Source: Bacteroidota bacterium (GTDB lineage Bacteria; Bacteroidota; Bacteroidia; M30B66). From it: a stretch of DNA of 52,981 nucleotides. The first letter of the stretch is position 1; each line of letters opens with the position of its first letter. This document shows, piece after piece, positions 1,270 through 52,981 of the stretch. The stretch covers positions 1 to 52,981 of the forward strand of contig CANHIS010000016.1 of the NCBI GenBank assembly GCA_947460255.1. Reading direction: 5' to 3'. Both the position numbers and the translations under genes were made by a program. Under the pieces are notes generated by a model. That model was not told the origin of the DNA. It made no database searches and saw only the letters and a list, made by a program, of their open reading frames with translations.

Positions 1270-1290
1270 GTCGTTTAAAGGGGATTCGCT

Positions 1291-2121: not shown

Positions 2122-2644
2122 TTTAATTGCTAATTTTTTCAGGTTTTTCCTTCTCCTGTTCGTACAGGTTTTGGTGCTGGATCAAGTGGAAATCACTGGC
2201 CCTGTGAATGGCTATTTCAATGCGTACTTGTACATCCTGTTTTTGCTGATGCTCCCAGTAAATATTAACCGATTACTGCTGTTATTGATTTGCTTTATCA
2301 CTGGAATCAGCATCGATATGTTTACCGGAACTGCCGGAATGCACGCATCAGCTTGCCTTGTATTAGGATTTATTAGACCTAGCTTTTTGAATTTGATCGC
2401 GCCCCGAGAAGGATATGAATCTACACTTCGCTTAACGATGCAAGGTATGGGCGGAAGCACCTTTTTTGTTTATGCGGGCGTGCTCACATTTGTGCATCAT
2501 TTGAGTTTATTTCTCCTCGAAGCTTTTAATTTTCTGAATTTTTTCGATTTGTTGCTCCGCGTATTCACCTGCAGTATATTTACTATGATGCTCATTGCTG
2601 TAACACAGGTACTTTCACAACGCAGCAAGGAGGTTGAAGGATGA
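2111..2644 (+). CDS. mreD: Rod shape-determining protein MreD
   Basis: This is a small integral membrane protein of the elongasome, 177 residues, with about five hydrophobic helices and few charged residues outside the loops. Sequence alone would only say membrane protein. The identification comes from size, topology and the place between mreC (11-nt overlap) and mrdA (4-nt overlap). Family sequence conservation is low, so context carries most of the weight. Confidence 0.9.
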   Translation: MISDLIANFFRFFLLLFVQVLVLDQVEITGPVNGYFNAYLYILFLLMLPVNINRLLLLLICFITGISIDMFTGTAGMHASACLVLGFIRPSFLNLIAPREGYESTLRLTMQGMGGSTFFVYAGVLTFVHHLSLFLLEAFNFLNFFDLLLRVFTCSIFTMMLIAVTQVLSQRSKEVEG

Positions 2645-4473: not shown

Positions 4474-4476
4474 CTG

Positions 4477-8204: not shown

Positions 8205-8419
8205 TCCTCAACTCGTTTTTATCTGCTAAAAACTGAACCCGAAAGTTTTCAGAAGAATCATTGTATTGTTATAAATCCGTTTGGAGACTACGATAAGTTG
8301 AACCAAAGCGATCAACTTGTTTCTGTTCACCAGTCATTCGATCATGTGATAGGTTTTACTAGCAAGGCTCGGACTTATTGAGAATCATTCAAACAATCAA
8401 CCAAATCATAGCGCAAAAA

Positions 8420-8449
8420 AAAGGCTGCCTCAATGAAGAGACAGCCTTT
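8420..8449 (-). terminator. Rho-independent terminator of the sialidase-like gene
   Basis: AAAGGCTGCCTC (8420-8431) pairs with GAGACAGCCTTT (8438-8449) across a 6-nt loop with one mismatch. A run of A on the left (8415-8422) gives the U tract for minus-strand transcription. It sits 22 nt after the stop at 8472. Confidence 0.85.
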
Positions 8450-8471
8450 ATAAAAAATTCAAAGCAGTTAA

Positions 8472-10430
8472 TTAGTGCTTAACAACCAATTTCAAAGTTG
8501 AAACTGCATTACCAGCAGTAATGTTCACCAAGTAAATTCCTGAAGGAATGTTCTGCGTGTTCAAAGAAACAGTGTGACTTCCTTTTGCTGCATTTGCATT
8601 AGAGATAGTCTCAACATTCTGACCAAGAAGATTGGTAATATTGATCGTTACATTCTCTGTTTGCTCAAGTTCAAATGATAGTTTAGAAACTTCATTTGCT
8701 GGGTTCGGAAGAAGATTTGCTTCAATTGTTGAAGCAGCAATTTTATTCAAACCAACTTGATCAAAATTATTTGGAACAGATAAGTAAACGATGTCGTTTT
8801 CAGTTCCGTTTGGATGAACAGCACCATCATCGATGGTTACTGAAGATCCTGGGAAACCATCTCTTTGATAGATCAAGTGGATGTTTTCATCAACCAATTT
8901 AGCAATTGCACCGTAAGTGTATTCAGCAAATTGATCAAAACCATCTGCTTCACTTCCAACTAAGTCAACTGGAGCAATCCAAGTGTTACCGTTATCGGTT
9001 GACTTTGTCATGTAAATGTGCTTGTAATTCGGTCCAACAGGGCGGTAATCAGCACCTTCTTTTGTTCCAGCATAGCTCAAATAAAGCGTTCCGTCAGCAT
9101 CAATACCTGCACTAGGGAAAGTTGTAAGACCCGCATTGTAAGGTACCGGACCATCGTTCGGATAATCAATAACAACATCGATTGTTGCATCGCCATTGTC
9201 GTCTACAACGTCTGCTGCCAAACGAACATCATCAGTAGCGAAACCTTCATTCCAGTAAAGGATTCCTGAAGTTCCAGGGAAGAAGCTGTAGCTTTGTTCA
9301 GCTTCTTGAGCATCATTCAACATTCTTTGTGCACCAAACCATACGTGAACAAGGTTGTTATTATCAATGATGATTGCAAAGTTACCGTCGGCTACATCAA
9401 GTGTATCAACATTTCCATCGCCATCAACATCCGTAAGTTGGTCATTCCATGGTTCGAATGGAAAAGAAAGGATGGTTGTAGTATCCCAAGTAACACCGTT
9501 ATCAGAAGACTTCCATAGCATTACGCGGGTGTTAGTTTCACCAGATACGAAAGCTACAGTGTTTCCGCGAGAATCAATTGCGTAAGCATCACCAGAGAAA
9601 CCATCAAAAATTGAAGAATCAACACCTGGCAATTGAACCATTGTTTGATCGAATGATTGGCCACCGTCTGTTGAGCGGTTGTACAACAAAGCACCATTAA
9701 TTCCATTGAAAGGGGTTCCAGTAAATGTTCCTCCAGTCGGCTCTGTTAATCCGATTACGTGAACGGTTTTTCCATCAGGACCACCAACTGCCATTCTTGG
9801 CCAAATAAGTGACATCTCCGTTTCAACGTTAACGATCCAGTTTTGTGTTTCAGTCAAGTTTGGATTGCGGCTAACTACAAGTGCTTGAGAAGGTGTACCT
9901 GCATTGTGAGCAACGATAATGTCACCAACATCGCTGATACGACCAATCGAACCGAAACCAGTTCTGGTTGTACCTTCCACTCTTGTAATTCCACTAGCTT
10001 GCTCATAATCAGGTAGATTTACCCAATTTGTACCATTGTAATAATGGTAAGCCATACCACGATCAGACCATGGAGTTCCAGCTTCGCCGCTGAATGTCCA
10101 AGTAGTAGAAAGTGTTCCATTACCATGGTTTAAGATACGGGTAGGCATTGAAGAATTGGTCTGCAAATCATACAATGTTTGACCAATTTTCACTTCCGGC
10201 CCAAAAGCTCTTGGAGCTGAAGTATTAAATGATGATGTTGTTGGATTAGGTGCCAAGAAAGGAATCCCCATGTATTCTTGGCTAAATCTTGCTGGGTTAG
10301 GAAGTTTCTTAGCTTTTACTGGCGAATGCATACCAAGGCCTAATGAAGCACGGTTTGTTTGTGCTACAAGTGCTCCAGTTCCCAATAAAATCAACCCGGC
10401 AGTTAAAACTTTGTAAAATTTCTGTTTCAT
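8472..10430 (-). CDS. T9SS-exported sialidase/BNR-repeat-like beta-propeller protein
   Basis: This is a 652-residue exported protein. Residues 1-23 form a signal peptide. The body carries at least three Asp-box motifs (S-x-D-x-G-x-T/S-W/F): STDGGQSF near 253, SSDNGVTW near 308 and STDNGNTW near 477. These mark sialidase-like or VPS10-like propellers. Between them lies a calcium-loop-like segment (DVDGDGNVD, 334-342) and a second acidic one near 410. The last 80 residues form a type A T9SS sorting domain: it starts with NLLPNPA, contains GQNVETIS and SGIYLVNI, and ends KLVVKH. The protein is therefore sent across the outer membrane and anchored or released. Catalytic sialidase residues could not be assigned, so binding is as possible as hydrolysis. 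It stands alone, with its own promoter-like box and terminator. Confidence 0.85.
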   Translation of the reverse strand: MKQKFYKVLTAGLILLGTGALVAQTNRASLGLGMHSPVKAKKLPNPARFSQEYMGIPFLAPNPTTSSFNTSAPRAFGPEVKIGQTLYDLQTNSSMPTRILNHGNGTLSTTWTFSGEAGTPWSDRGMAYHYYNGTNWVNLPDYEQASGITRVEGTTRTGFGSIGRISDVGDIIVAHNAGTPSQALVVSRNPNLTETQNWIVNVETEMSLIWPRMAVGGPDGKTVHVIGLTEPTGGTFTGTPFNGINGALLYNRSTDGGQSFDQTMVQLPGVDSSIFDGFSGDAYAIDSRGNTVAFVSGETNTRVMLWKSSDNGVTWDTTTILSFPFEPWNDQLTDVDGDGNVDTLDVADGNFAIIIDNNNLVHVWFGAQRMLNDAQEAEQSYSFFPGTSGILYWNEGFATDDVRLAADVVDDNGDATIDVVIDYPNDGPVPYNAGLTTFPSAGIDADGTLYLSYAGTKEGADYRPVGPNYKHIYMTKSTDNGNTWIAPVDLVGSEADGFDQFAEYTYGAIAKLVDENIHLIYQRDGFPGSSVTIDDGAVHPNGTENDIVYLSVPNNFDQVGLNKIAASTIEANLLPNPANEVSKLSFELEQTENVTINITNLLGQNVETISNANAAKGSHTVSLNTQNIPSGIYLVNITAGNAVSTLKLVVKH

Positions 10431-10461
10431 GTGACGATTGTGTTTTTAGATCGAAGAATCG

Positions 10462-10469
10462 CAAATCTA
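10462..10469 (-). promoter_or_regulatory. Putative -7 promoter element of the sialidase-like gene
   Basis: Read on the minus strand this is TAGATTTG, matching TAnnTTTG, followed by CG. It lies 32 nt before the start codon at 10430. No convincing -33 TTG was found at the usual distance. Confidence 0.4.
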
Positions 10470-10522
10470 TTCAATAATTTCCAATTAACATTAGGGAATA
10501 ATAACCTACAATGCATCAAAAA

Positions 10523-12490
10523 TTAACGTTTGTCGGACAATAAACTTAAGCCCTTTAACCAGGATGCAAAACTGATAAACTTAAAAACTCTTCCATTATC
10601 CTGATTACCTGATGGTTGAAGAAAAGATTCGTAAGACGCATCGAACTTTTTCTTGTCGATATATTTGTAAATATCGGATTGCTCAAAAAGGCTCTTCAAT
10701 TCTGGAGAAATCCTTCTAATCCACTCATTGTTAGGTGTGGTGTATCCTTTCTTATCCTTACGAGCATAAATTTCGATTGGCATAAATGGTTTTGCAGCTT
10801 CTCGCAACAGCACTTTGCCCGAACTGTTCGCGATTTTCATCTTCCCCGGAAGGGAAAAAAGCCATTCTGCCAATAAATGATCATCCGCAAATGGAGTGCG
10901 ACTTTCAACCGAATGCCACATCGAACAACGGTCTTCGCAACGCAAATATGACTTTAATGTCGAATTGTCTATTTCCCAAGCCAACCTACTATTAAGGTCA
11001 CTCCAATTCCGAAATTCTTGCTTGTGAAAACGGGATTTGTGTCGGCCAAAAAAATCTGGATTCAATAAATTTAATCCTGGGAAATAATTTCGATAAACAC
11101 TCGCCGCAACCGTATTTCCAACGCGAAAAACGCCTTCATACCTCAACCATTGTCGCCACTTAAATTTTCGAGCATCTTCGCCAAATGCATGCATTTCAGC
11201 TTTCCGTTCCGACTTCTGCAAACCTTTCCAAAAAAAGTACAAATGTGGCGCATAGCCTCCAAAAAGCTCGTCGCCTCCTTGTCCGTCGAGCACAACCTTC
11301 AAGCCCTTTTCGCGTACCAATTTCATCACGCTAAATTGTGCAAATGTGCTTGTTGACCAAATCGGCAAATCGAGCGCAAAACTCATTTCATCTAGCGAAT
11401 GCATTAGCATTTCGGCAGTTGGCTCCACTTCGTGGGATATGGCACCTGCGTAATCGGCCATCATTCGTGCCCAGGAACTTTCATCGGATTCCTTTCCCGG
11501 AAACACGGCGGTAAACACATGCAATGGATGATTTGTGGGCAACAAATGGCGCATCATGCCCACCAAAGCAGAACTGTCTAAACCTCCACTCAAGCAAGAA
11601 CCTACTTCCACGTCGGCACGAAGTCGGATGCGGATAGCTTCCAACAATTTCGATCGTGTAATTTCTACCAATTCAGTGGAAGAATATTTCACCGAAACGC
11701 TTTCATCCACAAATGGAAGTGTGTAATAACGAATCACTTCGAGCCTCTCCGACTTTAAATCGTAGCTCAAATGATGCCCAGGATTCAATTCAACTATCTG
11801 TTCAAAAAAACCCTTCGGTTCGTATTCAATTTCTGAAAACACAAAATAATCGAACACTGCATTTTCATTGAGATTTGCAGATACTTCACCACTTGCCAGC
11901 AGCACTTTGTATTCAGAGGCAAACAAAAGTTTCCCTGGAGAAACGTGGTAATAAAATGGCTTCACGCCAAAACGATCGCGCGCGGCAAAAAGGGTTTGTT
12001 CTAAACGATCGAAAATTACAAACGACCACATCCCATTAAATCGATCCAAGCAAGATTTTCCCCAGTGCTGATAAGCCGCTAAAATGACCTCAGTATCTGA
12101 TTCCGTTTGAAATTTAGAGCCTAGACTTTCGAGTTCTGCCCTAATTTCTGGGTAGTTGTAAACTTCTCCGTTGTAGGTAATCCAATACCGATCGTTGTAC
12201 GACATAGGCTGGTGGCCACTTTCGTCGGTCGATATGATAGCCAATCGGCGATGAACAAATCCACCTTGAATTTTTTCGTGTTGAAATTCGGGTGATTTGG
12301 GCAACCAAGAAAAGCGACCATTGAGGCAATTGGGCGTGGTGTCGCTTCCAGAAACAGGCGTCGCCTCACCGTTAGAAACAAACAAAAAACCTTCACCATC
12401 TGGGCCACGGTGTTGCATGCGCCGACTCATCTTGAGCAGGACGTTCGAATCGAATCCGTCTCGATAAAATGCGCCAGCAATGCCGCACAT
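10523..12490 (-). CDS. asnB: Asparagine synthase (glutamine-hydrolysing), surface-glycan-cluster type
   Basis: The N-terminal glutamine amidotransferase domain begins MCGIAGAF, leaving Cys2 as the nucleophile after Met removal. It continues with the HRRLAI and YNGEVYN segments. The synthetase domain carries the ATP pyrophosphatase loop SGGLDSSAL near residue 303 and GGDELFGGY. At 655 residues it is slightly longer than typical AsnB. The reaction transfers the amide of glutamine to aspartate or, in glycan-cluster homologues, probably to a carboxylated sugar. The ATG overlaps the stop of the methyltransferase gene by one base (TAATG), and glycosyltransferase and flippase genes precede it. A glycan-modifying role is therefore plausible, but free asparagine synthesis cannot be excluded. 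Confidence 0.92.
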   Translation of the reverse strand: MCGIAGAFYRDGFDSNVLLKMSRRMQHRGPDGEGFLFVSNGEATPVSGSDTTPNCLNGRFSWLPKSPEFQHEKIQGGFVHRRLAIISTDESGHQPMSYNDRYWITYNGEVYNYPEIRAELESLGSKFQTESDTEVILAAYQHWGKSCLDRFNGMWSFVIFDRLEQTLFAARDRFGVKPFYYHVSPGKLLFASEYKVLLASGEVSANLNENAVFDYFVFSEIEYEPKGFFEQIVELNPGHHLSYDLKSERLEVIRYYTLPFVDESVSVKYSSTELVEITRSKLLEAIRIRLRADVEVGSCLSGGLDSSALVGMMRHLLPTNHPLHVFTAVFPGKESDESSWARMMADYAGAISHEVEPTAEMLMHSLDEMSFALDLPIWSTSTFAQFSVMKLVREKGLKVVLDGQGGDELFGGYAPHLYFFWKGLQKSERKAEMHAFGEDARKFKWRQWLRYEGVFRVGNTVAASVYRNYFPGLNLLNPDFFGRHKSRFHKQEFRNWSDLNSRLAWEIDNSTLKSYLRCEDRCSMWHSVESRTPFADDHLLAEWLFSLPGKMKIANSSGKVLLREAAKPFMPIEIYARKDKKGYTTPNNEWIRRISPELKSLFEQSDIYKYIDKKKFDASYESFLQPSGNQDNGRVFKFISFASWLKGLSLLSDKR

Positions 12491-36119: not shown

Positions 36120-37019
36120 TTACTTTCTTGGGTCGAAAAGTGTAAAATTCCTGGAGATACAAAAACCTCCTATGATATCGCCTTTATCCCAACGGCCAGT
36201 AGTTTCGTGAATGAAAGCACGTTCAATCATTCCAGGAGAATTGGTAAATGAAATCTGAAAAACGTGCCCACCTGTTTCTATATCGAATCCTATGGAAAGA
36301 CTGTTTACCGTTCCTTCAGGTCGATTAAATTGGTAGTAATATTCGGCATTGATGCTCATTCGGCGGGTAAGCTTTAAGCGGCCGCCCATGCCAAGAGAGA
36401 TTAAATCGTGCGGGTCGGTTGAAAGTGGTACTAAGTTTCTGTGTACAACAGTTGGCGCGATCATGAACGAAAAGCTGTCATCAAACTTTCGCGCCACGAT
36501 AATTTGATGAGTAAAGAAGAAGTTAGAGGTGTAATAATTTTTAATGTCGGGATTTGAGAATTTCAAGGTTCTCACAGCCCAAGAGGTGAAATAATTTAAA
36601 GTAATAGGCATGACTTTTTTCCCTTTGCTTTGACGAAGAAGTCGGAATTTCGCAAATCCATCATACGTTTTTTCGTAAGTACTTCTTCCACCACCCACTG
36701 TTAACCAAGGCGTTACACCATATTCTAGCGCCATTCTCATGGATGCGATATCTAATCCGAAGAAATTATAAGCACCAGAATTGAATGCTCCAAAACGGTG
36801 AGAAATCCTAAAATCCAACACGCCCGCAGCCACTTGTTCGTTTGAATGCCCATTCACCAATCGCGTAGTTTTAAAGGTTGCTGCAGCGTATTCGGGCGTT
36901 TCTTGTTCCGCCAACGACTCTTCGAGAAGTTTGGCCATTTCGTCATCCACTGGTTGGGCGAATGCGATCGAAACAGAGAAAAAACAAGTGAAGAAAAGGA
37001 GTGTAGAGAATCTTAACAT
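36120..37019 (-). CDS. DUF5777-family outer-membrane beta-barrel protein
   Basis: This is a 299-residue exported protein with a signal peptide (LLFFTCFFSVSIAFAQ). A short acidic helical segment (DDEMAKLLEESLAEQE) follows, then a barrel with many alternating strands. The TTRLVNGHSNEQVAAGVLDF opening and ISHRFGAFNSG segment are typical of DUF5777. Function is unknown. Members in Bacteroidota often sit beside YceI and haem-binding lipoprotein genes, as here. A terminator lies between it and yceI, so it may be transcribed separately at least in part. Confidence 0.8.
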   Translation of the reverse strand: MLRFSTLLFFTCFFSVSIAFAQPVDDEMAKLLEESLAEQETPEYAAATFKTTRLVNGHSNEQVAAGVLDFRISHRFGAFNSGAYNFFGLDIASMRMALEYGVTPWLTVGGGRSTYEKTYDGFAKFRLLRQSKGKKVMPITLNYFTSWAVRTLKFSNPDIKNYYTSNFFFTHQIIVARKFDDSFSFMIAPTVVHRNLVPLSTDPHDLISLGMGGRLKLTRRMSINAEYYYQFNRPEGTVNSLSIGFDIETGGHVFQISFTNSPGMIERAFIHETTGRWDKGDIIGGFCISRNFTLFDPRK

Positions 37020-37032
37020 AGAGAAAAAAATA

Positions 37033-37059
37033 AGGGCTGGAGGATAAATTTCCAGCCCT
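37033..37059 (-). terminator. Terminator after yceI-like gene
   Basis: AGGGCTGGA (37033-37041) pairs with TCCAGCCCT (37051-37059). The run of A at 37022-37030 supplies the U tract for minus-strand transcription. Confidence 0.8.
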
Positions 37060-37073
37060 AAACTAAAACTTAA

Positions 37074-37631
37074 TTATTTCTTTGGTTCGTAAGCTGCATC
37101 AACAGTAATTTCAACTGTTTCAGCAATCTTATCAGCAACAACTGCTGGACGTTCGATGCGGTAATCGCTCAATTTTACTTTGAACTTTGAGTTAGCCGAA
37201 ATCTTTCCACCTTTAACAGTGATGATTCCATCTGCAGTAGCTGGCTGTGTAACTCCATGCATGGTTAAACTGCCAGTAACTTTTGCTTTGTAAGTTCCAT
37301 CTTTTGAGAAATCTACTTCAGCAAGATTGGAAATTTTCCCTTTGAAATCTGCTTTCGGGAACTTCGTGCTTTCCATGTAGTTCTCGTTAAAATGCTCTTC
37401 CATCAAGGCTTTTTCGAAACGGAAACTCTTAACCAAGGCAGCGAAAACGATGTCGCCAGTTTTGGTATTGATGAATGATGTAGCTTCTTTGTTTACTGCA
37501 TCGATGTTTTCTACAGGTGTTTTGGAGAAAAACTGGATTTTGGCAGTTCTGGTTTGGTGCATGTCTTGCGCATTCACTTGAAATGATGCTGCCAAAATAA
37601 GGGCACCGGCAAATAATTTATTGATTTTCAT
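37074..37631 (-). CDS. YceI-family periplasmic lipid-binding-type protein
   Basis: This is a 185-residue exported protein with a signal peptide ending at VNAQ (about residue 22) and a lipocalin-like YceI barrel. In known homologues the barrel binds long isoprenoid chains such as quinones. Family segments are visible: IQFFSKTPVENIDA, FINTKTGDIVFAALVKSF, and the MHGVTQPATADG turn. The substrate cannot be read from sequence. The gene follows a cytochrome-type lipoprotein pair by 42 nt, so carriage of a quinone-like molecule near an electron-transfer chain is a reasonable inference. Confidence 0.9.
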   Translation of the reverse strand: MKINKLFAGALILAASFQVNAQDMHQTRTAKIQFFSKTPVENIDAVNKEATSFINTKTGDIVFAALVKSFRFEKALMEEHFNENYMESTKFPKADFKGKISNLAEVDFSKDGTYKAKVTGSLTMHGVTQPATADGIITVKGGKISANSKFKVKLSDYRIERPAVVADKIAETVEITVDAAYEPKK

Positions 37632-37673
37632 GTGGAAAGGGTTTTAAAGATTGAAGTAAAAACAATGCCAAGA

Positions 37674-38054
37674 TTAATTCTCTGGATAACCAGCTACCAC
37701 CCAAGCAGAAATTTTGCTGATATCGCAGGCTTCTAATTTTGGCTGGCCTTGTGGCATGTTCGATGCATTTCCATCGCGTTTTACAGAAGAAACCAAAGTT
37801 GCTGCAGCGCCATCCAAATAGGCTTTCGTATCTGTGTATGTATCCAATTTAATTCCGGCCGATGGAGAAGCTCCACCATGGCAGCCTGTGCATTTGGAAT
37901 CTAAAATTGGCTTAACAGAGGCGAAATTAAGTGCTGTGGTATCGCAAGTAGCTTTATTATCAGGATACAGTTCCTCTTCTACATCGTAGTAACATCCTGA
38001 GAAACTAACGATAGCTAGTGCAATCAAGGAAATATTTACAAAAGTCTTCATCAT
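37674..38054 (-). CDS. Single-haem-type cytochrome lipoprotein
   Basis: This is a 126-residue exported lipoprotein (signal ending FSGC). It has one c-haem motif, CTGCH, in the context LDSKCTGCHGGASPSAGI. A candidate distal ligand Met follows in SNMPQGQP, then a conserved-looking Cys and WVVAGYP. The ATG at 38054 is chosen over 38114, which would overlap the neighbour and spoil the signal peptide. It lies 43 nt after the related two-domain gene. An electron-transfer role is inferred from motif and context. Confidence 0.8.
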   Translation of the reverse strand: MMKTFVNISLIALAIVSFSGCYYDVEEELYPDNKATCDTTALNFASVKPILDSKCTGCHGGASPSAGIKLDTYTDTKAYLDGAAATLVSSVKRDGNASNMPQGQPKLEACDISKISAWVVAGYPEN

Positions 38055-38097
38055 TTGAGGCAATTTCGTAATTTTTAACAACGGAAACACAAAGAAC

Positions 38098-38811
38098 TTA
38101 ATTATTGTTTGCACCAGCTTGTACCCATTTTTGAATCACGGTTCTTTCGCAAGCCGACATTTGCGGTTGATTTTTCGGCATGGCAGAATAGCCTGTTAAA
38201 TGATTAATCGTTCCAAGAAGTTTTCCGTTGTTGGCTTGTGCTAAAATTCCTGCATAATTAACCAAACTGATTCCTGCGCTTGGGAAATTCCCACTGTGGC
38301 AACCATTGCAATTTGCTTGGATGATCGGCTGAACATTGGCAACAAAAGTGAAACTGGTTGTGTCGCAACCAGAACAGCCTGTGGTGTTTTGTGCACCTTG
38401 ATTCATCCATTGCACAATCAAATTGATTTGAGCTTGGTTGAGCGGCGCAGCAGGTGGTCGAGGCATGATCTTGTCGGGATCAGTTTCTGTAATTACTTCT
38501 AGCATTTCGCTGCTCCAAGCATTTCCCGCCACAACAAGATCGTTTCTTGGGCTGTTCATGATGTGCTCGTAACTGTCGAGCATGATGCCTTCGGCTGGAT
38601 TGGTTGCATTGTGACAGCCCGACATTGCACAATTAGAATTCAGCAAAGGCAGAATTTCCGTTTCAAAACAAATCAGCGTATCCGACGGGTCGGGCGTATT
38701 TGTAGTATCAGGCACAATGGGATTATTGTTATTGTTTCCAATAATTTCTGGCTCATGCTTGCAAGCCGCAAACGAGAGCACCAAAAGACCCATTAAAAAC
38801 AATTTATTCAT
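38098..38811 (-). CDS. Two-domain cytochrome-type lipoprotein (CX4CH and CX2CH)
   Basis: This is a 237-residue lipoprotein (LSFAAC signal) with two domains of the same type as the downstream single-domain protein. The first motif is CAMSGCH, a CX4CH form, with the ligand candidate in DKIMPRPP. The second is CNGCH with YSAMPKNQP. A short acidic and Asn-rich linker follows the lipid anchor. The start at 38811 is preferred over 38856 because it gives a normal lipoprotein signal and lies 19 nt from a -7 box. It belongs with its neighbour and YceI in an outer-membrane or periplasmic module; the redox partner is unknown. Confidence 0.8.
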   Translation of the reverse strand: MNKLFLMGLLVLSFAACKHEPEIIGNNNNNPIVPDTTNTPDPSDTLICFETEILPLLNSNCAMSGCHNATNPAEGIMLDSYEHIMNSPRNDLVVAGNAWSSEMLEVITETDPDKIMPRPPAAPLNQAQINLIVQWMNQGAQNTTGCSGCDTTSFTFVANVQPIIQANCNGCHSGNFPSAGISLVNYAGILAQANNGKLLGTINHLTGYSAMPKNQPQMSACERTVIQKWVQAGANNN

Positions 38812-38829
38812 CGATTTTTTATTTCTAAG

Positions 38830-38837
38830 CAAACTTA
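38830..38837 (-). promoter_or_regulatory. Putative -7 promoter element of the cytochrome/YceI cluster
   Basis: The minus strand reads TAAGTTTG, matching TAnnTTTG, followed by C. It lies 19 nt before the start at 38811. A TTG at 38854-38856 (minus) gives a 16-nt spacer. Confidence 0.5.
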
Positions 38838-38953
38838 ACCAAGTTGTAAGTTTCAATACATTATATATCGACTACACTATTACAGCTTCAAGACAAACAA
38901 TTGAAATTAGATGTTTCAAATTCAGCCCATTAGGCAAATTCTTTAAAACAGCT

Positions 38954-42211: not shown

Positions 42212-43492
42212 ATGTATATTCGCGAAGTGCAAAAAGTTGTTGTATTTGGTCCAGGACCTCAATTCAAAGGAGGCATATCAAACTTTACGGTTTCACTCTG
42301 TAAAGCACTTGAAAAACAAGGCAATGAGGTGCACTTGGTTTCATGGACACAACAGTATCCTGCAATAATCCCCAGAGATTTTATCGACCGAAATTCGCGA
42401 ACAAATCTGTTGGAAGGAAGCAAGATTACCGTGCATTACATCACCAATTATAACAATCCTTTCAGTTGGTTTAAAACGGCAAACTTGATTGCGAAAATTG
42501 CACCTCAAAAAGTGATTTTCCAATGGGCTATTGCGATTCAAGGATTGCCGATGGGTGTGATTGCTCAGAGGGTAAAGAAAAAGTTGCCTGCTTGTGAGAT
42601 CATTTTCGATGTGCACAATGTGGTGCAAAAGGAAACGGGGGAATTAGATAAAATCCTCACCCGTTTTGCGCTGAAAAAAGCGGATACATACATCATGCAC
42701 GGACAAATCACCATTGAAGAATTTGGTGCATTTATGCCCGAAGTGAAATTCATGGTAAGTACCGATGGATCGAGATCGAAAGAAATGAAGACAATCCTCA
42801 AGTTGTTTCATCCTATTTACGACATCTTTGTTCCTGACGCACATTTCGATGTTGAACAAGAACGTAAAAAGGAAAAACTTGGAACAACCGTGTTTTTGTT
42901 TTTCGGATTTATTCGAAAATACAAAGGCCTGCATTATACCATTGAAGCATTTTCAAGAATTGCTCAGAAATATCCCGATGCAAGTTTGATTATTGCAGGA
43001 GAATCCTTTTGGGATACTGTAGATAAAAAGAAATGGCATGTGAAATTAAAATCGGCCATATTTAAAATGTTGAAGTCGATTTTTATTAAAAGCAACGACC
43101 AAGAAAAAGATTATCGACCTTTAGAATTAATTGAAAAATTCGGAATTCAAGATCGGGTTTTGGTGGCGAATCGATTTATTGCCAACGAAGAAGTACATCG
43201 TTTTTTTCAATTGAGTGATGTTGTGGTAAATTACTACGAATATGCCACTCCAAGTGGTGTAGAATCTATTGCTTACAATTTCAACAAACCTATTTTAGCC
43301 ACTAGAGTTGGACATTTTGCTCACGCTATTTTGGATGGTAAAAATGGTTACCTCGCCGAAGCGGCGGATATTTCGAGCATGGCAGAAACCATGGAACATT
43401 ATATTCAAAACCCAATTCCTGCTTCAGCTGTAGCAGTTTTTAAAAAACAATTGAGTTGGGAAGAATATGCGAGAACAATTAATTCGAATTAA
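42212..43492 (+). CDS. GT-B glycosyltransferase (family 4-like)
   Basis: This is a 426-residue enzyme with a GT-B fold. The N-terminal acceptor domain starts VVVFGPGPQFKGGISNF (the G-G-I loop typical of GT4). The C-terminal donor domain has LFFGFIRKYKGLHYTIEAF, LIIAGESFW and the nucleotide-sugar binding YYEYATPSGVESIAYN segment. No signal or membrane helix is seen, so it is cytoplasmic or peripheral. It stands alone on the plus strand and is not adjacent to the 10.5-15.8 kb glycan cluster. Donor and acceptor are unknown. Confidence 0.88.
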   Translation: MYIREVQKVVVFGPGPQFKGGISNFTVSLCKALEKQGNEVHLVSWTQQYPAIIPRDFIDRNSRTNLLEGSKITVHYITNYNNPFSWFKTANLIAKIAPQKVIFQWAIAIQGLPMGVIAQRVKKKLPACEIIFDVHNVVQKETGELDKILTRFALKKADTYIMHGQITIEEFGAFMPEVKFMVSTDGSRSKEMKTILKLFHPIYDIFVPDAHFDVEQERKKEKLGTTVFLFFGFIRKYKGLHYTIEAFSRIAQKYPDASLIIAGESFWDTVDKKKWHVKLKSAIFKMLKSIFIKSNDQEKDYRPLELIEKFGIQDRVLVANRFIANEEVHRFFQLSDVVVNYYEYATPSGVESIAYNFNKPILATRVGHFAHAILDGKNGYLAEAADISSMAETMEHYIQNPIPASAVAVFKKQLSWEEYARTINSN

Positions 43493-46711: not shown

Positions 46712-47425
46712 TTAGAATGCAGGAGTGGAAATCGTTCTTTTTTCAGCTTTCGCTTTCCGCTTCAATTCGTAGGACAAAGTTGTAGAGACAATCTGTATAT
46801 CCGCTGGGTTGTTAAAGTTAAACTGACGAGTGTAACCAACTTGTATTTCCCAAGGCCCTGGCAATGATCTTTTCACACTAATTGTTGAACGCACTCTGCG
46901 AAAGAAAAAGCTGCCCGCTTCGGATCTCCACATGGGTTCAGACTGTATTGTTAAGTACGTTTTCTTGATAATTTTCTTGGTGAATGAGGCCCTAAATCGG
47001 TAGTTCTGTTGTGGAACATCGATGCCATATTGAACATCGGCTGTGGGGAAAAACTGGTATTGATAGAGGGCTCTGAGTTTTAATTCATTGTTTCCTTTCT
47101 CATCGAACTTGACATTTTTCTGCAAGCCAATCCCGAAGCGATATTTGTCCCATCTGCTAGAAGTAGCAAATCGTGCATCCAACAAGAGTCTGAATCCATT
47201 ACCTAGTTTTCGAGATGCATCAATGCTAAAGTAATTCCCTCTGAGGCGATTTATTTCACGGTCGAAGCGTGATTGAAACTGCGCCGAAAGCTCAACTTTT
47301 TTATTAAGCTTGTGGTTGACTTCAATGGCTGTCCAAAGGTGAAGATCCCGTTGATCCGCTTGCGCAAAAACAACTGAAGTTGAGGCAATAATTAAAGCTG
47401 AAACCAGGATTTTTTTAATCATCAT
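46712..47425 (-). CDS. DUF2490-family outer-membrane protein
   Basis: This is a 237-residue exported protein (signal ASTSVVFAQ) with a beta-barrel pattern of about ten strands: LHLWTAIEVNHKLNKKVELS, QFQSRFDREIN and GIGLQKNVKF are typical of DUF2490. Function unknown. The ATG at 47425 follows a GGTGGAG SD-like stretch and overlaps the DUF4956 stop by 11 nt. It is the last gene of the CotH/VTC/DUF4956 locus, and would be its outer-membrane component. Confidence 0.8.
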   Translation of the reverse strand: MMIKKILVSALIIASTSVVFAQADQRDLHLWTAIEVNHKLNKKVELSAQFQSRFDREINRLRGNYFSIDASRKLGNGFRLLLDARFATSSRWDKYRFGIGLQKNVKFDEKGNNELKLRALYQYQFFPTADVQYGIDVPQQNYRFRASFTKKIIKKTYLTIQSEPMWRSEAGSFFFRRVRSTISVKRSLPGPWEIQVGYTRQFNFNNPADIQIVSTTLSYELKRKAKAEKRTISTPAF

Positions 47426-48077
47426 CTCCACCTTTACTGATGGCTACTTCAGCATCGTTTCTATAATCATTGTAAAAGACAAAAATTCGTGCAGTATCCT
47501 TGAAGAAATCGATTTTTGAAAACTCCACTCTGTGAATATTTAATCCGGTTCTTTGACGAAGATCTTTGATCATTTCATCTCGTTTTTCAGGTGAGATCAA
47601 ATCAATACGATCGTAAATAACTTCCTTATAGTTTTCGTGTGTAACGCGCACTTTGTGATCGATGATCCATGCCACACTGAGGATGATCAGATTTGCGATA
47701 ACGAGCATAATCATGCCTTGTTCGCTAGTGGTTAACGCGTTGATAATTCCGAGGGTAACCGAGATAAAGAAATATCCCATTTCACGAACTGGCACAGTAA
47801 CCGTTCTATAACGAAGAATGGAGAAAATCGCGAAAAGTCCGAAAGCAAAGCCCATCTTTAGCTTCGCACTGCTCAACAAAAAGCAGATCAAGAAATTGAT
47901 GATATTGAAAAGGAAAAAGGTGAAAAGGAAATCACGGTTTTTTCTTAACGGATAATAGAGCAACCTGACTAAAACAAATATCACGAAGAAGTTGATTCCG
48001 AAACGAATTCCGAAATCAGTTAAACTGTGCGCTCCAGTAGCGCTTAAGCTTTCATTAATTGCTTCTATTGGCTCCAT
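47415..48077 (-). CDS. DUF4956-family integral membrane protein
   Basis: This is a 220-residue protein with four helices in the first 150 residues and a cytoplasmic alpha/beta tail (YKEVIYDRIDLISPEKRDEM to FVFYNDYRND). The signature segment FGLFAIFSILRYRT followed by VPVREMGYFFI is DUF4956. Relatives are commonly encoded next to VTC-domain and CotH-kinase proteins, as here. Function is unknown; a channel or membrane partner for polyphosphate synthesis is inference. It overlaps the polymerase gene by 23 nt and the DUF2490 gene by 11 nt. Confidence 0.88.
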   Translation of the reverse strand: MEPIEAINESLSATGAHSLTDFGIRFGINFFVIFVLVRLLYYPLRKNRDFLFTFFLFNIINFLICFLLSSAKLKMGFAFGLFAIFSILRYRTVTVPVREMGYFFISVTLGIINALTTSEQGMIMLVIANLIILSVAWIIDHKVRVTHENYKEVIYDRIDLISPEKRDEMIKDLRQRTGLNIHRVEFSKIDFFKDTARIFVFYNDYRNDAEVAISKGGDDD

Positions 48078-48834
48078 TATTTGAAATCAATTGTTTGATT
48101 TTAGAAATTTTATGTCTGAATGCATTTGTTTTTTCAACAGCATTCATGAGCACCATGCCCATTGCGTATTTTGAAATTCCGAAAGGACGATTTCTACGTT
48201 TGCGTAGTGCTTGAATGATCGGACTTTCGCGTTTTACTTGGTCTTGTTTTACTTCGATAATCACCAATCCGTCCATTGATTCTACACCACTTTCCTTTTT
48301 GAAACAAAGTTCCGTATCGATGGTCACACGTTCAGATAGATCTTTCGCGCTGAGAGTAATTCTAGAGTAGTCAATGAGAATAGAGGGTACTAATGAAATA
48401 TGGTCAAGTTGATGAAAGATCAACAATTCTTGCTCTAATTGCTCGTCGTTTAAGGTATCTCCAGATTTTTTAATTCTGTATTTCTCAGTTCTGAATCCTT
48501 TGATTTTCTTCTTTATTTCGAAAAATGCAGTGCCTGTATCAAGATATTCTCGACTGCGAATTTTAATTCGATTGGGTTTTCCATTGTGGTGGTCGGTGTA
48601 AAAATTCAGTGCGTCTGTATCGTAATATAGACTGCTGTATTTGAATAACCGTTTCCCATCAATTTCAAGCACGTTATAGCTGTGCAGAATTTCTGCCAAC
48701 AAATCATTGAGTTCATGTTGATGAAGGATAAACTTTTGATCTACCCGATTCATCAGTTTAACTCTATCGAGTTGCTGCAATGAAACTGGTTCAAAATGCT
48801 GAAGAGCAGGAAACGAAACTTGATTTTCAGCCAT
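48055..48834 (-). CDS. VTC-domain polyphosphate polymerase-like protein
   Basis: This is a 259-residue protein of the triphosphate-tunnel fold, like the catalytic domain of yeast Vtc4, which makes polyphosphate from ATP. Conserved tunnel residues are visible in order: MNRVDQKFIL (basic start strand), NRIKIRSREY (Arg/Lys/Arg), AFFEIKKKIKG (Glu and Lys), ERVTIDTELCF and VIIEVKQDQ (metal-binding Glu). No membrane helix, so it would act at the inner face of the membrane with the DUF4956 neighbour. The ATG overlaps the lipoprotein stop by one base (TAATG). Polymer synthesis is family-based; the substrate is not proven here. Confidence 0.88.
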   Translation of the reverse strand: MAENQVSFPALQHFEPVSLQQLDRVKLMNRVDQKFILHQHELNDLLAEILHSYNVLEIDGKRLFKYSSLYYDTDALNFYTDHHNGKPNRIKIRSREYLDTGTAFFEIKKKIKGFRTEKYRIKKSGDTLNDEQLEQELLIFHQLDHISLVPSILIDYSRITLSAKDLSERVTIDTELCFKKESGVESMDGLVIIEVKQDQVKRESPIIQALRKRRNRPFGISKYAMGMVLMNAVEKTNAFRHKISKIKQLISNNGANRSN

Positions 48835-49220
48835 TAATCGAAAATCTTGATATCGGGGGCTATAACCTCTTGCTTATTTTCGGTGATTTCGACAGTTTGT
48901 TTCACTACTTCTTGGTTAAATGGACAACTATTGCATTGAGAATAAACGAAAATAGTGTATTTACCTTTTCTCAGTCCACGAAAAACATAATCGCCTGTAT
49001 ATGATGTTCTAATGTCATCATCTACTGTTGTTCCATCGCCGTAAGTAATGTAAACTCTCGCATCTTGCACATATGCGCTATCGGTAACGATTCCAGAAGT
49101 ATTTACGTCATAACCAAAAATCTTTCCTTGAATGGAGGACGTACCGCCTTCTCCGGCCTCTTTTGAACATGAAATCAGACCGATAGCAATAACTATCGCT
49201 GGAATAATTCGCTTCAACAT
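48834..49220 (-). CDS. Small lipoprotein with CarboxypepD_reg-like beta domain
   Basis: This is a 128-residue lipoprotein (lipobox LISC, Cys18). The mature part is a beta sandwich of the carboxypeptidase-regulatory type: SSIQGKIFGYDVNTSG, then VYITYGDGTT, and YVFRGLRKGKYTIFVYS. A CNSC pair of cysteines lies near residue 99. It is the first gene of the VTC-DUF4956-DUF2490 overlap group and follows the CotH gene after 92 nt. A surface-exposed or periplasmic accessory role is likely. No specific function can be named. Confidence 0.7.
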   Translation of the reverse strand: MLKRIIPAIVIAIGLISCSKEAGEGGTSSIQGKIFGYDVNTSGIVTDSAYVQDARVYITYGDGTTVDDDIRTSYTGDYVFRGLRKGKYTIFVYSQCNSCPFNQEVVKQTVEITENKQEVIAPDIKIFD

Positions 49221-49252
49221 CGTTTGAAAATATTCCGCAATATACGTTAAAT

Positions 49253-49273
49253 GAATATTAAGTAAAAGTTAAC
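49253..49273. repeat. Shared upstream element, copy 1
   Basis: GAATATTAAGTAAAAGTTAAC lies 33 nt upstream of the lipoprotein start. It matches copy 2 (51768-51788) at 19 of 21 bases. Contains GTTAAC and AATATT palindromes. Possible operator or promoter element. Confidence 0.55.
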
Positions 49274-49312
49274 CCCTAGATAATCGTTGATCCTTAAAAA
49301 TCATTGTTTTGA

Positions 49313-51715
49313 TCAATTACTTTTAACGAATCGTTGGGCTTTCGAACCAATTTGAAGGAAGTAAATACCAGAAGAAAGTTCAGAAATATCTACAATGGTT
49401 TCACTGTTTAAAGATCCAGTTTGTAATACCTGACCAAGCGTATTGTAGATCGAGAAGCGAGGGCTTTCTGAAACGTTATTTAGAACTATTCGAATTTGGT
49501 CTTGAGCAGGATTAGGAAAAATCACAAAATTATTGGTAAATAAATTGTCCATTCCATTTGGAACATTGTTGTTGTTAGCTGCAAATGTCCCAGCTTGATT
49601 AACAAAAGCTCCAGTTCCATTGGGTACTCTGGCGTAAGCCACATTGGAAGTTTGAGGTCCGAAGTTCAATGAATCGACCAAATTCAATCCTGCATCTAAA
49701 AGCATCACAGATTCTCCCAATGCAGATAATTTAAAATTACAGTGTCTGCTTCCTTGAGCGCTGTCTTCATCGGCCCAAAAAATCAGGTAACCATTGCCGG
49801 GAATAACAGTTCCTGCAGGGATTTCCCATTTAGGAAGATTGAGCAAATTGTCCGATAGGTAAAAACCGCTTAAATCGATTGGATTAACATTGTTATTATA
49901 CAGTTCTATCCAATCTTCAAATTCACCTACTTCATCTGAGGCGCCGCTATTGTTGGATGCCATGACCTCATTAATTACAACACCTGTTATTTCAGATTGA
50001 TTGGCCTTAACTTGGTAAACAAACACGTCATGTTCGGCTCCAGTAGGCAGGTATGACGCTGACTTCGTTACATTTGCAGAAACTGCTTCAACATAAAAGC
50101 GAACATATATTCCAGCTGAGTAACCGGGGATTTCAGCCCCATAAATTCCATCATTCGCGCCTCCATCGTTGTGCGCTCCATCATCGAACATGAGCGTCTC
50201 CATAAACGTTCCTGTGAGTTGATTGGAATAGAACAAATTCACATGATCAATGCCTGAAGCAGAAGTAACTGTAGCATTAACAGTGACCGCTGTAGCTGCG
50301 TCTGGCTGCTCCCATTCTGCTCCATTTGAATTCTTGTAAAGAGCTGAAGAAATTGTTGGTGCAACTTGCTGGATTTCAGTATTTGTATTTAGATAATTTA
50401 CTCGGCTTTCCATCCAATCTTTCATCGCGGTTTCCTCTGCAACAAATTGATTGTAGGTGTATAGCTTTTTAGGATCGCTCTGAACCAAGGCATCAATTTG
50501 AGCTTTGTAATTGTCGAGGATTGCATCACAATTTGCAATATTCATTTCCTCTTGAATAATCGTGCGGAAATGCGCTAAATATCTCTGGCGAATAGCAGGA
50601 ACAGTGAGCAATTTATTCAACAACGGATAATTTGCATTGGTGACATTGTAAAAAACGCTCCAATTCAGAGCATTGCTTGCCATTACACTGTTGCCATCAA
50701 ATTCTATTGGTGTAAGCCGATTAGTTTCTGGATCGAAATACACGTAATAATCCATCTTACCTTTAAACACATAACTATCATCGTCGGAAAATGCAATTTC
50801 GGAAGCCAAAAACCACAACGCGCGGTCGATGTCGTAAAATGCTGGCAAATCAGTTGGAATATTTGCCGCTGCAGTATTGTTCAATTCATAACATCCATCC
50901 ACAAGATGTTGCCATGAGTTACTGATATCGCTACTTTTTAACGTGTATTTGGTTTGATAGAGTGCAGTATCTGCTCCTAAATAATTCAATCCTGCTGTTC
51001 CATCGCCCCATTGCGCTCCGCCGCCTGGTCCACCACCGCCCGGACCTCCAACTGTTCTAACATGCGCTCTAAAATTTGCGCCATCGTTGCTAAAGAACCA
51101 TTCTTCAAGAAAATCCTTATTCAATTGTTGAACATTTGGATACAAACCCCAATCTTGATCATTGATATACAAATGAACAAAGTTGGCTTTTGCAGCAGGA
51201 ATGTGTCGACGGATTTGATGCAAAAAATAAACCTCTCGTAAAAAAGATTCATCTTGGTATGCATTGTTGAGATTCAATGTCGAATAGCCCATCAAATCTT
51301 GGTTATCGCGAAATTCTTCGGTTTTAATACTGAAAGATTTTTTCTGAGAAGTACCCGTTCCTTGATAAGACGTGTTACCTTTAAAACTCACTCCAACACT
51401 ATCGAGAGTAATTCCATCTACTGTTAATGTTGCTGGAATGTGCGTTCTAGTTGCATAATTATTTGTGAGAAGGGTCCAGTAATTGGGCTGCGCAAACGAA
51501 AGCCGAAACTCTCGTATGATTGTTGAATCGTACAATCCAGTTGGGTTAACTTTTCCGGTGTACAACATTTTGCCATCCGAACTAAAAGTCATGTCGTTGG
51601 GCAAAGATTGAGTCTCTCCATCGAGCGTAGCAAACAGCAAAAGTGCAGATGCGAAAGCGGTTTTAAATGAAATGATTTGATTAAAAACGCGCGTTTGAGT
51701 TGGTAGTTTTTCCAT
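49313..51715 (-). CDS. T9SS-exported CotH-type kinase with lamin-tail domain
   Basis: This is an 800-residue exported protein. The N-terminal hydrophobic stretch (ASALLLFA) acts as a signal. Residues 80-420 form a CotH kinase domain: GVSFKGNTSYQG, KKSFSIKTEEF (probable ATP Lys), DWGLYPNVQQL, and the metal-binding DDDSYVFKG followed by LTPIEFDGN (Asp340). CotH proteins are atypical protein kinases. A Gly-rich insert lies at 223-238. A beta domain with DDGAHNDGGANDGIYG follows, then a lamin-tail domain near 577-690 (INEVMASNNSGASDE, WIELYN, GYLIFWAD). A type A sorting domain ends in QRFVKSN. It is exported past the outer membrane. It heads the polyphosphate-type locus. Confidence 0.88.
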   Translation of the reverse strand: MEKLPTQTRVFNQIISFKTAFASALLLFATLDGETQSLPNDMTFSSDGKMLYTGKVNPTGLYDSTIIREFRLSFAQPNYWTLLTNNYATRTHIPATLTVDGITLDSVGVSFKGNTSYQGTGTSQKKSFSIKTEEFRDNQDLMGYSTLNLNNAYQDESFLREVYFLHQIRRHIPAAKANFVHLYINDQDWGLYPNVQQLNKDFLEEWFFSNDGANFRAHVRTVGGPGGGGPGGGAQWGDGTAGLNYLGADTALYQTKYTLKSSDISNSWQHLVDGCYELNNTAAANIPTDLPAFYDIDRALWFLASEIAFSDDDSYVFKGKMDYYVYFDPETNRLTPIEFDGNSVMASNALNWSVFYNVTNANYPLLNKLLTVPAIRQRYLAHFRTIIQEEMNIANCDAILDNYKAQIDALVQSDPKKLYTYNQFVAEETAMKDWMESRVNYLNTNTEIQQVAPTISSALYKNSNGAEWEQPDAATAVTVNATVTSASGIDHVNLFYSNQLTGTFMETLMFDDGAHNDGGANDGIYGAEIPGYSAGIYVRFYVEAVSANVTKSASYLPTGAEHDVFVYQVKANQSEITGVVINEVMASNNSGASDEVGEFEDWIELYNNNVNPIDLSGFYLSDNLLNLPKWEIPAGTVIPGNGYLIFWADEDSAQGSRHCNFKLSALGESVMLLDAGLNLVDSLNFGPQTSNVAYARVPNGTGAFVNQAGTFAANNNNVPNGMDNLFTNNFVIFPNPAQDQIRIVLNNVSESPRFSIYNTLGQVLQTGSLNSETIVDISELSSGIYFLQIGSKAQRFVKSN

Positions 51716-52344: not shown

Positions 52345-52981
52345 TTAATCAAGCTGTTCGAAAACACTGTTTTTTGATTTGTATTCCGGAATCAAAAGCT
52401 TCATTCTTTTAACTATTTCTTCGTTGTTTTGGGTTTCGAAGAATGGAATCATTTCATTGATTGCTTGTTCAACCAAATTAAAATCGAACTCTTGCACCAA
52501 AGCTTTCATGATTCGTTTGTGGTGCGTTTCAACTGTATTTTCTTTGTCGTTGAGCAATTCTTCGTAAAGCTTTTCACCTGGTCGTAAGCCTGTGTATTTG
52601 ATCGTTATATCCTTATTCAGCGTTAGCCCTGAAAGCTTGATCATCTTTTCTACCAAATCTTTTATTTTGACAGATTTTCCCATATCGAAAAGGAAAATCT
52701 CACCACCTTGACCATAAGTTCCTGCTTCTAAAACAAGCAAACAAGCTTCTGGGATGGTCATGAAAAAGCGCGTCACATCAGGATGGGTCACTGTAACTGG
52801 TCCGCCGCGTTCAATTTGTCGCGCAAAAATTGGGATCACTGAACCATTGCTGCCTAACACATTTCCAAATCGTGTGGTTATGAATTTGGTTTTGCTTACT
52901 TGACCTAAGCTTTGCACATAAATTTCTGCAACACGTTTAGAAGCGCCCATCACATTGGTAGGCCTTACCGCTTTATCGGTA
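52345..52981 (-). CDS. Nucleotide-sugar epimerase/dehydratase, CapD/FlaA1 type (3' part)
   Basis: This is the C-terminal part of a polysaccharide-biosynthesis SDR enzyme of the CapD type (UDP-GlcNAc/GalNAc 4,6-dehydratase or epimerase). The gene runs off the window. The segment at the edge reads [16 protein letters not shown]; the Lys after GAS and the preceding block are family-typical. Further on are [31 protein letters not shown] and [14 protein letters not shown]. Full members have an extra N-terminal membrane region and Rossmann domain, both missing here. It lies at a contig edge, probably the start of another glycan locus. Confidence 0.9.

Follow-up and report, generated by a model that had tools for sequence, protein, structure and literature searches.

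The conserved core of the locus described here is a pair of genes, those of a VTC-type enzyme and of a DUF4956 membrane protein, and the five genes which stand together are not one unit. The window, by which we mean the whole stretch of 52,981 nucleotides that was analysed, contains all five open reading frames of the locus (5/5), all of them on the minus strand:

49313..51715, minus strand: CotH kinase gene (800 aa); its secreted product has lamin-tail and T9SS type A sorting domains; accessory, a separate unit.
49227..49255, minus strand: conserved non-coding block TTCATTTAACGTATATTGCGGAATATTTT, directly upstream of the lipoprotein gene; candidate promoter or regulatory region.
48834..49220, minus strand: lipoprotein gene (128 aa), lipobox Cys18, transthyretin/CarboxypepD_reg-like body.
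48055..48834, minus strand: gene of the VTC-type triphosphate tunnel metalloenzyme (259 aa; polyphosphate polymerase domain).
47415..48077, minus strand: gene of the DUF4956 inner-membrane protein (220 aa).
46712..47431, minus strand: gene of the DUF2490 predicted outer-membrane beta-barrel, with a GTG start and an alternative ATG at 47425.

The lipoprotein and VTC genes overlap by 1 nt, the VTC and DUF4956 genes by 23 nt in the window, and the DUF4956 and DUF2490 genes by 17 nt with the GTG start or by 11 nt with the ATG. The first-pass annotation had given five genes with overlaps of 1, 23 and 11 nt, which the minus-strand reading frames confirm (the 11 nt being those of the ATG start), and its picture of gene products laid out across the envelope is supported. 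The CotH gene lies 92 nt away from the lipoprotein gene and has no overlap coupling to the other four. In two congeners, L163 and L165, the four-gene block occupies the same place but CotH is missing there; TTCATTTAACGTATATTGCGGAATATTTT is largely shared with both, and we regard it as a candidate promoter or regulatory region of the four-gene operon. Since the block of the nearest congeners lacks CotH and stands behind this conserved upstream block, CotH is optional.

We counted these families in an unbiased sample of 148 genomes of the phylum. Every VTC genome also has DUF4956 (29/29, hence 0/29 with VTC alone; hypergeometric 1e-19, and 2e-12 at genus level), and DUF4956 occurs without VTC in 16 genomes. 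The two genes are almost always adjacent: in the set of type A loci (the type of the window), which was gathered by a DUF4956 scan and is therefore biased towards the relatives of the window, they are at most 30 nt apart in 79 of the 81 measurable loci, with overlapping reading frames in 58. No fusion of the two genes was found among the loci measured. Both families were found in the same 3 of 14 control genomes; these three come from two phyla of bacteria and, among archaea, from Methanosarcina. The partners of type A loci in the unbiased sample are DUF2490 (9/13), the lipoprotein (3/13) and CotH (2/13). This means that the conserved five-gene unit of the first-pass annotation does not hold as such: co-conservation stands for VTC, DUF4956 and, in type A, DUF2490, and fails for the lipoprotein and for CotH, which is also missing from the block of the closest congeners. 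The family Cthe_2159 was considered as a general partner and rejected, as it adjoins gut Bacteroides-type loci (L139 and L140) yet is carried by only 5 of the 148 genomes. In 13 loci PorV/PorU, recognised by eye from the sequences, lie beside the pair on the opposite strand; this neighbourhood is probably lineage synteny.

The VTC protein matches Pfam PF09359 with 102.5 bits (cut-off 23; 3e-29). The nine catalytic residues K200, R264, R266, K281, K294, R361, R373, E426 and K458 of Vtc4 are all present as K34, R93, R95, K108, K118, R158, R169, E194 and K222, and are invariant or nearly so in an alignment of 16 sequences; Vtc4 K455 is the exception and is not kept. Searched against the PDB, the profile matches Vtc4 and Vtc2 chains only, bar one chance-level match (3g3q, E 3.5e-13). 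The structural model (pLDDT 89) aligns with Vtc chains at Z 13-18 (mostly 16-18, best 18.4) over 204-222 residues, and Vtc comes first in Foldseek (E 5e-13). The active site of the polyphosphate-polymerase-type enzyme announced by the earlier annotation is thus intact, and polymerase activity is likely. A Pfam scan of the 259 residues gives the VTC domain alone, with neither an N-terminal SPX nor a C-terminal Vtc1-type membrane domain. Bacterial VTC-type enzymes are common, and databases name them polyphosphate polymerases. The genome of the window also encodes PPK1, and the idea that VTC substitutes for it was ruled out, PPK1 being present in 27/29 VTC genomes (p 0.77).

The DUF4956 protein (Pfam PF16316, 172.5 bits against a cut-off of 30.6, 8e-51) carries the invariant motif GLxA.F...RYRT. 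It had been described as a four-helix membrane protein; the membrane protein stands but the four helices do not, the model having five hydrophobic helices followed by a C-terminal beta-alpha-beta-beta domain (ferredoxin/ACT-like). In profile-profile comparisons the DUF4956 of the sister type, type B, matches MgtC at Prob 98 (2.9e-13, 200 columns including the ACT-like domain; controls at most 0.9), whereas the type A profile of the window matches type B at Prob 95 and MgtC directly at Prob 0.1. The Pfam MgtC family (PF02308) does not match the DUF4956 of the window, and the best type B score, 24.3 bits, is under the 31.4-bit cut-off. DUF4956 thus appears to be a distant relative of the MgtC/SapB superfamily, through its sister type, and not a recognisable Vtc1-type pore. 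A Vtc1-like pore was tried as another identity and rejected: there is no sequence relative in the PDB, Foldseek gives nothing for the membrane part, and the top VIA rows are plant ALMT channels, at a Z of 6.3 which is within the chance level for helical models.

The DUF2490 protein has an N-terminal signal sequence and matches Pfam PF10677 with 36.6 bits (cut-off 29.8; 5e-9), which is low for this family; locus-linked members score low as a group (36-81 bits). Their net charge is 9.5, against 5.8 for members elsewhere (p 0.015), and that of the protein of the window is +19. A ladder of arginines was discarded as evidence for a polyanion pore, the conserved positions being present also in DUF2490 proteins outside such loci. 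In the lipoprotein, the lipobox Cys18 is followed by the family motif C-x-K-E-x-G-x-G-G, and the CarboxypepD_reg match is sub-threshold (4e-6, Pfam).

The two types differ in their partners. DUF2490 is found in 58/90 type A loci versus 0/22 type B loci, and an HlyD-like adaptor in 1/90 versus 20/22, so that the swap is near-exclusive; a TolC-like channel or outer-membrane efflux protein accompanies 8/22 type B loci. Next to the type B adaptor or channel we identified no ABC, MFS or RND pump, and the locus of the window has no adaptor with outer-membrane channel beside DUF4956. The type B partners (HlyD-like, TolC-like, never DUF2490) point to envelope export, which is indirectly supported because type B DUF4956 is linked to this adaptor and this channel. 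Several type B loci combine DUF4956, adaptor and channel without VTC, and therefore the cargo exported there need not be polyphosphate.

We tentatively favour, at somewhat less than even odds, the reading that a conserved bacterial gene set encodes a polyphosphate synthase coupled to the membrane, and that its product or a signal from it reaches the envelope. Two proteins at the inner membrane would form the core machine, in which the cytoplasmic VTC-type enzyme would polymerise the phosphate of ATP into polyphosphate and would work only with DUF4956. The latter, with its cytoplasmic ACT-like domain, would tether VTC at the membrane and either couple it to the periplasm or pass the product in. 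In the Bacteroidota type, a surface-anchored or periplasmic lipoprotein and the DUF2490 barrel would finish the envelope path, filling the position of the type B HlyD-like adaptor and TolC-like channel, and CotH would be an optional surface kinase, exported by type IX secretion and acting on the product or next to it. Two findings, the strict reliance of VTC on DUF4956 and the swap between DUF2490 and HlyD-TolC, make the coupling of synthesis to transfer across the Gram-negative envelope a testable hypothesis. Some observations point against this reading: PPK1 is already in the genome, no relation between DUF4956 and Vtc1 was detected, the known roles of the MgtC relatives of DUF4956 are regulatory and not those of polymer channels, and Vtc4 K455 is not conserved. 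The deletions in Streptococcus intermedius, silent for VTC but not for DUF4956 and CotH, also count against it (PMC12345266).

Less probable, and on the whole unlikely, is a regulatory module, in which VTC would make or read a local polyphosphate signal and an MgtC-like DUF4956 would respond to ATP, phosphate or magnesium. The output would be an altered state of surface polysaccharide or surface protein, with DUF2490, the lipoprotein and CotH as effectors. The type B match to MgtC (Prob 98 over 200 columns) speaks for this reading, as do the S. intermedius deletions of DUF4956 and CotH, which alter Pel or aggregation when that of VTC is silent (PMC12345266), and the presence of the trio beside Gram-positive Pel operons (PMC7112168). 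However, it explains neither the type B tie to HlyD-like and TolC-like proteins nor the type A tie to the barrel, and the type A profile of the window has no direct match to MgtC.

It is improbable that VTC is a tunnel enzyme of another reaction (a tripolyphosphatase, or a hydrolase of nucleotides or small phosphates) in an operon handling phosphorylated envelope precursors. Enzymes of the tunnel fold do catalyse several kinds of reaction, those other than Vtc align with the model at Z 10-14.5 (below the Vtc chains), and in the literature searched we found no bacterial VTC enzyme with biochemical characterisation or measured activity. But the ExExK motif is the mark of hydrolytic tunnel enzymes, and its first Glu is replaced by Arg here (R30-x-x-x-K34) as in Vtc4 (R196-x-x-x-K200); moreover, the residue set of Vtc4 is kept and sequence searches yield only Vtc proteins.

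The secreted CotH (Pfam PF08757, 142.8 bits, 2e-41) is a predicted kinase and an optional addition to the VTC-DUF4956 core. Both catalytic Asp are present, D313 and D340 aligning with the equivalents in 5jd9 of B. subtilis D228 and D251, and the C-terminal T9SS type A sorting domain is matched by PF18962 (5e-14) and TIGR04183 (1e-14). It could be a chance neighbour, one among the several CotH proteins that this genome secretes by the T9SS: its CotH genes number seven, the block of L163 and L165 lacks one, and TTCATTTAACGTATATTGCGGAATATTTT lies between CotH and the lipoprotein gene. We consider this improbable, as CotH is within five genes in 18/93 type A and 6/22 type B loci, well above the expectation from a few copies per genome, and L167, of another genus of the family, has a full-length CotH, 61% identical, again directly upstream of VTC. 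CotH is also present somewhere in 29/29 VTC genomes against 60/148 overall (2e-14; 4e-8 by genus and 3e-5 by family; the rCotH profile, whose seed includes the T9SS tail and over-matches, was left out of the counts), and all three families are found together again in Firmicutes and Bifidobacterium (PMC7112168).

A link between CotH and our preferred synthase would be that the module exports ATP-made polyphosphate as phosphate donor, or as polymer for attachment, for secreted CotH acting on surface proteins or glycans; this is very improbable, although ATP is scarce outside the cell, where secreted CotH kinases work, and such a supply, if true, would explain CotH in every sampled VTC genome, adjacent or not.

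Among known systems, BT3498-BT3499 of Bacteroides thetaiotaomicron, a laboratory strain, is the same DUF4956-DUF2490 gene pair; it appears, with a change that is not significant and with no mention of CotH, in an iron-response table (PMC10434189). In yeast, the tunnel domain of Vtc4 delivers polyphosphate through a membrane channel (PMC9911596). The yeast complex (Vtc4/Vtc3/Vtc1) shares with our locus a tunnel-fold polymerase, the same catalytic residues and an obligate membrane partner, whereas SPX and the Vtc1-type (DUF202) domain are absent here and DUF4956, which appears to belong to the MgtC superfamily through its sister type, takes the place of the membrane partner. MgtC/SapB proteins such as E. 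coli YhiD likewise have membrane helices followed by an ACT-like C-terminus, with a full-length profile match for type B; unlike them, DUF4956 is below the Pfam cut-off (the protein of the window has no direct match) and has VTC and an outer-membrane barrel as its partners. Tripartite exporters (an adaptor of HlyD type with a channel of TolC type) resemble type B, where DUF4956 adjoins the adaptor and often the channel, whereas the type of the window has the DUF2490 barrel in their place.

Finally, the CotH-PPP-DUF4956 trio adjoins pel operons in Gram-positives and recurs in Firmicutes and Bifidobacterium (PMC7112168); NELoc-2 also carries VTC/CotH genes (PMC2879425). In S. intermedius (SIR_1592-1594), deletion of VTC had no aggregation phenotype, that of DUF4956 raised Pel and lowered aggregation, and that of CotH lowered Pel and changed aggregation (PMC12345266). 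These pel accessory genes are the same three families clustered, with a secreted CotH and a DUF4956 made of an MgtC-like membrane part and an ACT domain; the window differs in adding a lipoprotein, a DUF2490 barrel and the T9SS domain on CotH, and no Pel genes were found. Neither a Pel family nor pelDEAFG contiguity was seen among the ORFs scanned in the window (the contig ends at 52981), nor PelG among the polytopic neighbours screened around related loci. A 2025 paper reports that it did not find the synteny of the trio outside Pel loci (PMC12345266); the Bacteroidota loci described here are such cases. They show that CotH, VTC and DUF4956 also cluster independently of Pel, and the basic function of the cluster is therefore to be sought outside Pel production.

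The locus consists of CotH, lipoprotein, VTC, DUF4956 and DUF2490 genes, in that order, all on the minus strand; the regions of the window mentioned here are the following:

247-5745: cell-shape operon of mreB, mreC, a 177-aa ORF, a penicillin-binding transpeptidase and rodA
36120-38856: cluster of a DUF5777 barrel, YceI and two cytochrome c proteins
42212-43492: group 1 glycosyltransferase, flanking the locus
46712-51715, minus strand: the five-gene locus
52345-52980: CapD-like polysaccharide biosynthesis gene, flanking the locus and interrupted by the contig end

The ORF listing agrees with the five genes of the first-pass annotation: the overlaps are 1, 23 and 17 nt, the last shrinking to 11 nt with the ATG as the DUF2490 start, and a gap of 92 nt separates CotH from the lipoprotein gene. 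Pfam supports the VTC, DUF4956 and DUF2490 assignments, as well as a CotH, a lamin-tail and a type IX sorting domain in the CotH protein. The lipoprotein, whose sole Pfam match (CarboxypepD_reg) is sub-threshold, is a member of a recurrent family in which the lipobox cysteine is followed by the motif C-x-K-E-x-G-x-G-G. The operon is real, conserved, uncharacterised and envelope-associated.

The five genes as such are not a conserved unit. Of the 13 genomes with DUF4956 of the window's type (type A) in an unbiased sample of 148, 12 have VTC beside it, 9 DUF2490, 3 the lipoprotein and 2 CotH; in a larger set of 93 loci selected by similarity, the counts are 86, 59, 38 and 18. The exact order recurs in two related loci (L093, L108) and, with one additional small gene, in three others (L071, L072, L133). 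Two loci of the window's genus, L163 (VTC 81% and DUF4956 92% identical to the window's) and L165, have at the same position a four-gene block devoid of CotH, downstream of a gene sized like the window's 141-aa thioesterase gene. Directly upstream of the lipoprotein gene, a 29-base block is common to the window and L163, the L165 match being poorer; this suggests a four-gene operon with a putative promoter of its own.

A model centred on CotH, as first proposed, must be corrected. The CotH gene is optional, an accessory outside the core. The window protein keeps, as D313 and D340, both catalytic aspartates known from Bacillus (PMC7821199). It belongs to a subgroup (DDDSY...MDYY...DGN; window, L167, L110, L136) linked to VTC in the four cases seen. 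In L167, from another genus of the same family, the gene immediately upstream of VTC encodes a CotH with 61% identity over 778 residues; among the other eight relatives examined, no comparably close copy was found. CotH is found in all 29 VTC genomes of that sample of 148, drawn evenly from the phylum (2e-14; by genus 4e-8; by family 3e-5), genome size and ancestry confounding such counts, and this co-occurrence points to a possible role in the system.

The pairing of VTC with DUF4956 is what stands of the co-conservation, together, in type A, with DUF2490. DUF4956, VTC, CotH and DUF2490 occur in 45, 29, 60 and 55 of the 148 genomes. DUF4956 is present in 29/29 VTC genomes (1e-19; by genus 2e-12), while 16 genomes carry it without VTC, which means that VTC depends on DUF4956 and not the reverse. 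Comparing the two hit lists, DUF4956 directly adjoins VTC at 30 of 33 VTC places; of the other three, two lie at a distance of about 3 kb or less from it, and the third is a fragment close to the end of a contig. The same 3 of 14 control genomes (Bacteroides ihuae, Corynebacterium glutamicum, Methanosarcina acetivorans) are positive for both. A functional coupling is strongly indicated. VTC as a replacement for PPK1 is ruled out, since PPK1 is present in 27/29 VTC genomes and in the window's own.

Other neighbours were observed in related loci. In 15/16 loci, the gene immediately upstream of VTC belongs to a family of about 138 aa (for instance in L068, whose member has no Pfam match, L090, L100, L106, L107, L111, L114, L115 and L125). 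Type A DUF4956 stands without adjoining VTC in L043 (7863-8516), L079, L081, L083, L095 and L128, L079 and L128 beginning near the locus end. In L138-L140 (gut Bacteroides/Prevotella-type), the VTC-DUF4956-DUF2490 block has a Cthe_2159 carbohydrate-binding protein downstream of it, an assignment that Pfam confirms for L139 and L140; in B. ihuae this protein is the genome's sole copy. Many Flavobacteriales-like loci (L034, L071, L072, L089, L105, L120, L129, L131) have the pair convergent with ispF-, porV- and porU-like (T9SS) genes, as judged by sequence and size.

Apart from one chance-level match (E 0.78), all PDB matches of the profile of 16 VTC relatives are Vtc4 or Vtc2. In the alignment, Vtc4 K200/R264/R266/K281/K294 and R361/R373/E426/K458 correspond to window K34/R93/R95/K108/K118 and R158/R169/E194/K222, all nine being invariant or nearly so; to inactivate the enzyme of yeast, R264, R266 and E426 are the positions that were mutated (PMC9911596). 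Vtc chains are the best matches of the predicted model (pLDDT 89), with Z up to 18.4, whereas other tunnel enzymes do not exceed 14.5. Judging by this active site, VTC is likely a polymerase.

DUF4956, modelled as five helices and a C-terminal beta-alpha-beta-beta domain, has no reliable PDB match for its membrane part. By genomic context it splits into two types: type A (90 loci) has DUF2490 in 58 and an adaptor in 1, whereas type B (22 loci, seven families) has an HlyD-like adaptor in 20, a TolC-like channel in 8 and DUF2490 in none; 8 of these 22 are without VTC. In L143 (6485-10400) and L152-L158 (about 8000-11000), type B DUF4956 is directly followed by adaptor and TolC-like protein, an arrangement present in several genomes lacking VTC and possibly an unrecognised export system.

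Of the readings considered, a membrane-coupled polyphosphate synthase with a route through the envelope has the best support. Its cytoplasmic member would be VTC, coupled with DUF4956 in the inner membrane; the lipoprotein and DUF2490 would lie farther out, and CotH at the surface. From the type B adaptor and channel and the type A barrel, we infer export. The chief alternative is a regulatory module of MgtC type that exports nothing. Over 200 columns, the C-terminal domain among them, the type B profile matches that of the MgtC family (Prob 98.0, 2.9e-13; at most 0.9 for a reversed profile and unrelated membrane proteins), even after splitting type B by VTC linkage and splitting the MgtC set, and Pfam gives a below-cut-off MgtC signal in type B too. 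Type A matches type B (Prob 95) and has no direct match to MgtC. For the homologue of Streptococcus intermedius, an MgtC-type membrane part with an ACT domain was described earlier (PMC12345266). In that species, deleting DUF4956 raises Pel and lowers aggregation, deleting CotH lowers both, and deleting VTC has no aggregation phenotype (PMC12345266); these mutants fit the regulatory module better than export. The envelope polyphosphate system first proposed is kept, stripped of its five-gene framing, as a testable hypothesis.

That CotH, VTC and DUF4956 occur together elsewhere is borne out by Gram-positive pel operons, where they are accessory genes (PMC7112168); a Clostridium perfringens locus has both VTC and CotH (PMC2879425). 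The trio was reportedly not found outside Pel loci (PMC12345266). No Pel family was found in the window or among the scanned polytopic neighbours of related loci, PelF and PelD having been sought in part of the loci; on this basis, contrary to that report, the present loci are instances outside Pel loci. Unlike yeast VTC, the window enzyme has neither an SPX domain nor a Vtc1-type membrane domain, and compared with the Gram-positive pel cluster, the operon represents the Gram-negative version of a cluster that is already known in part.
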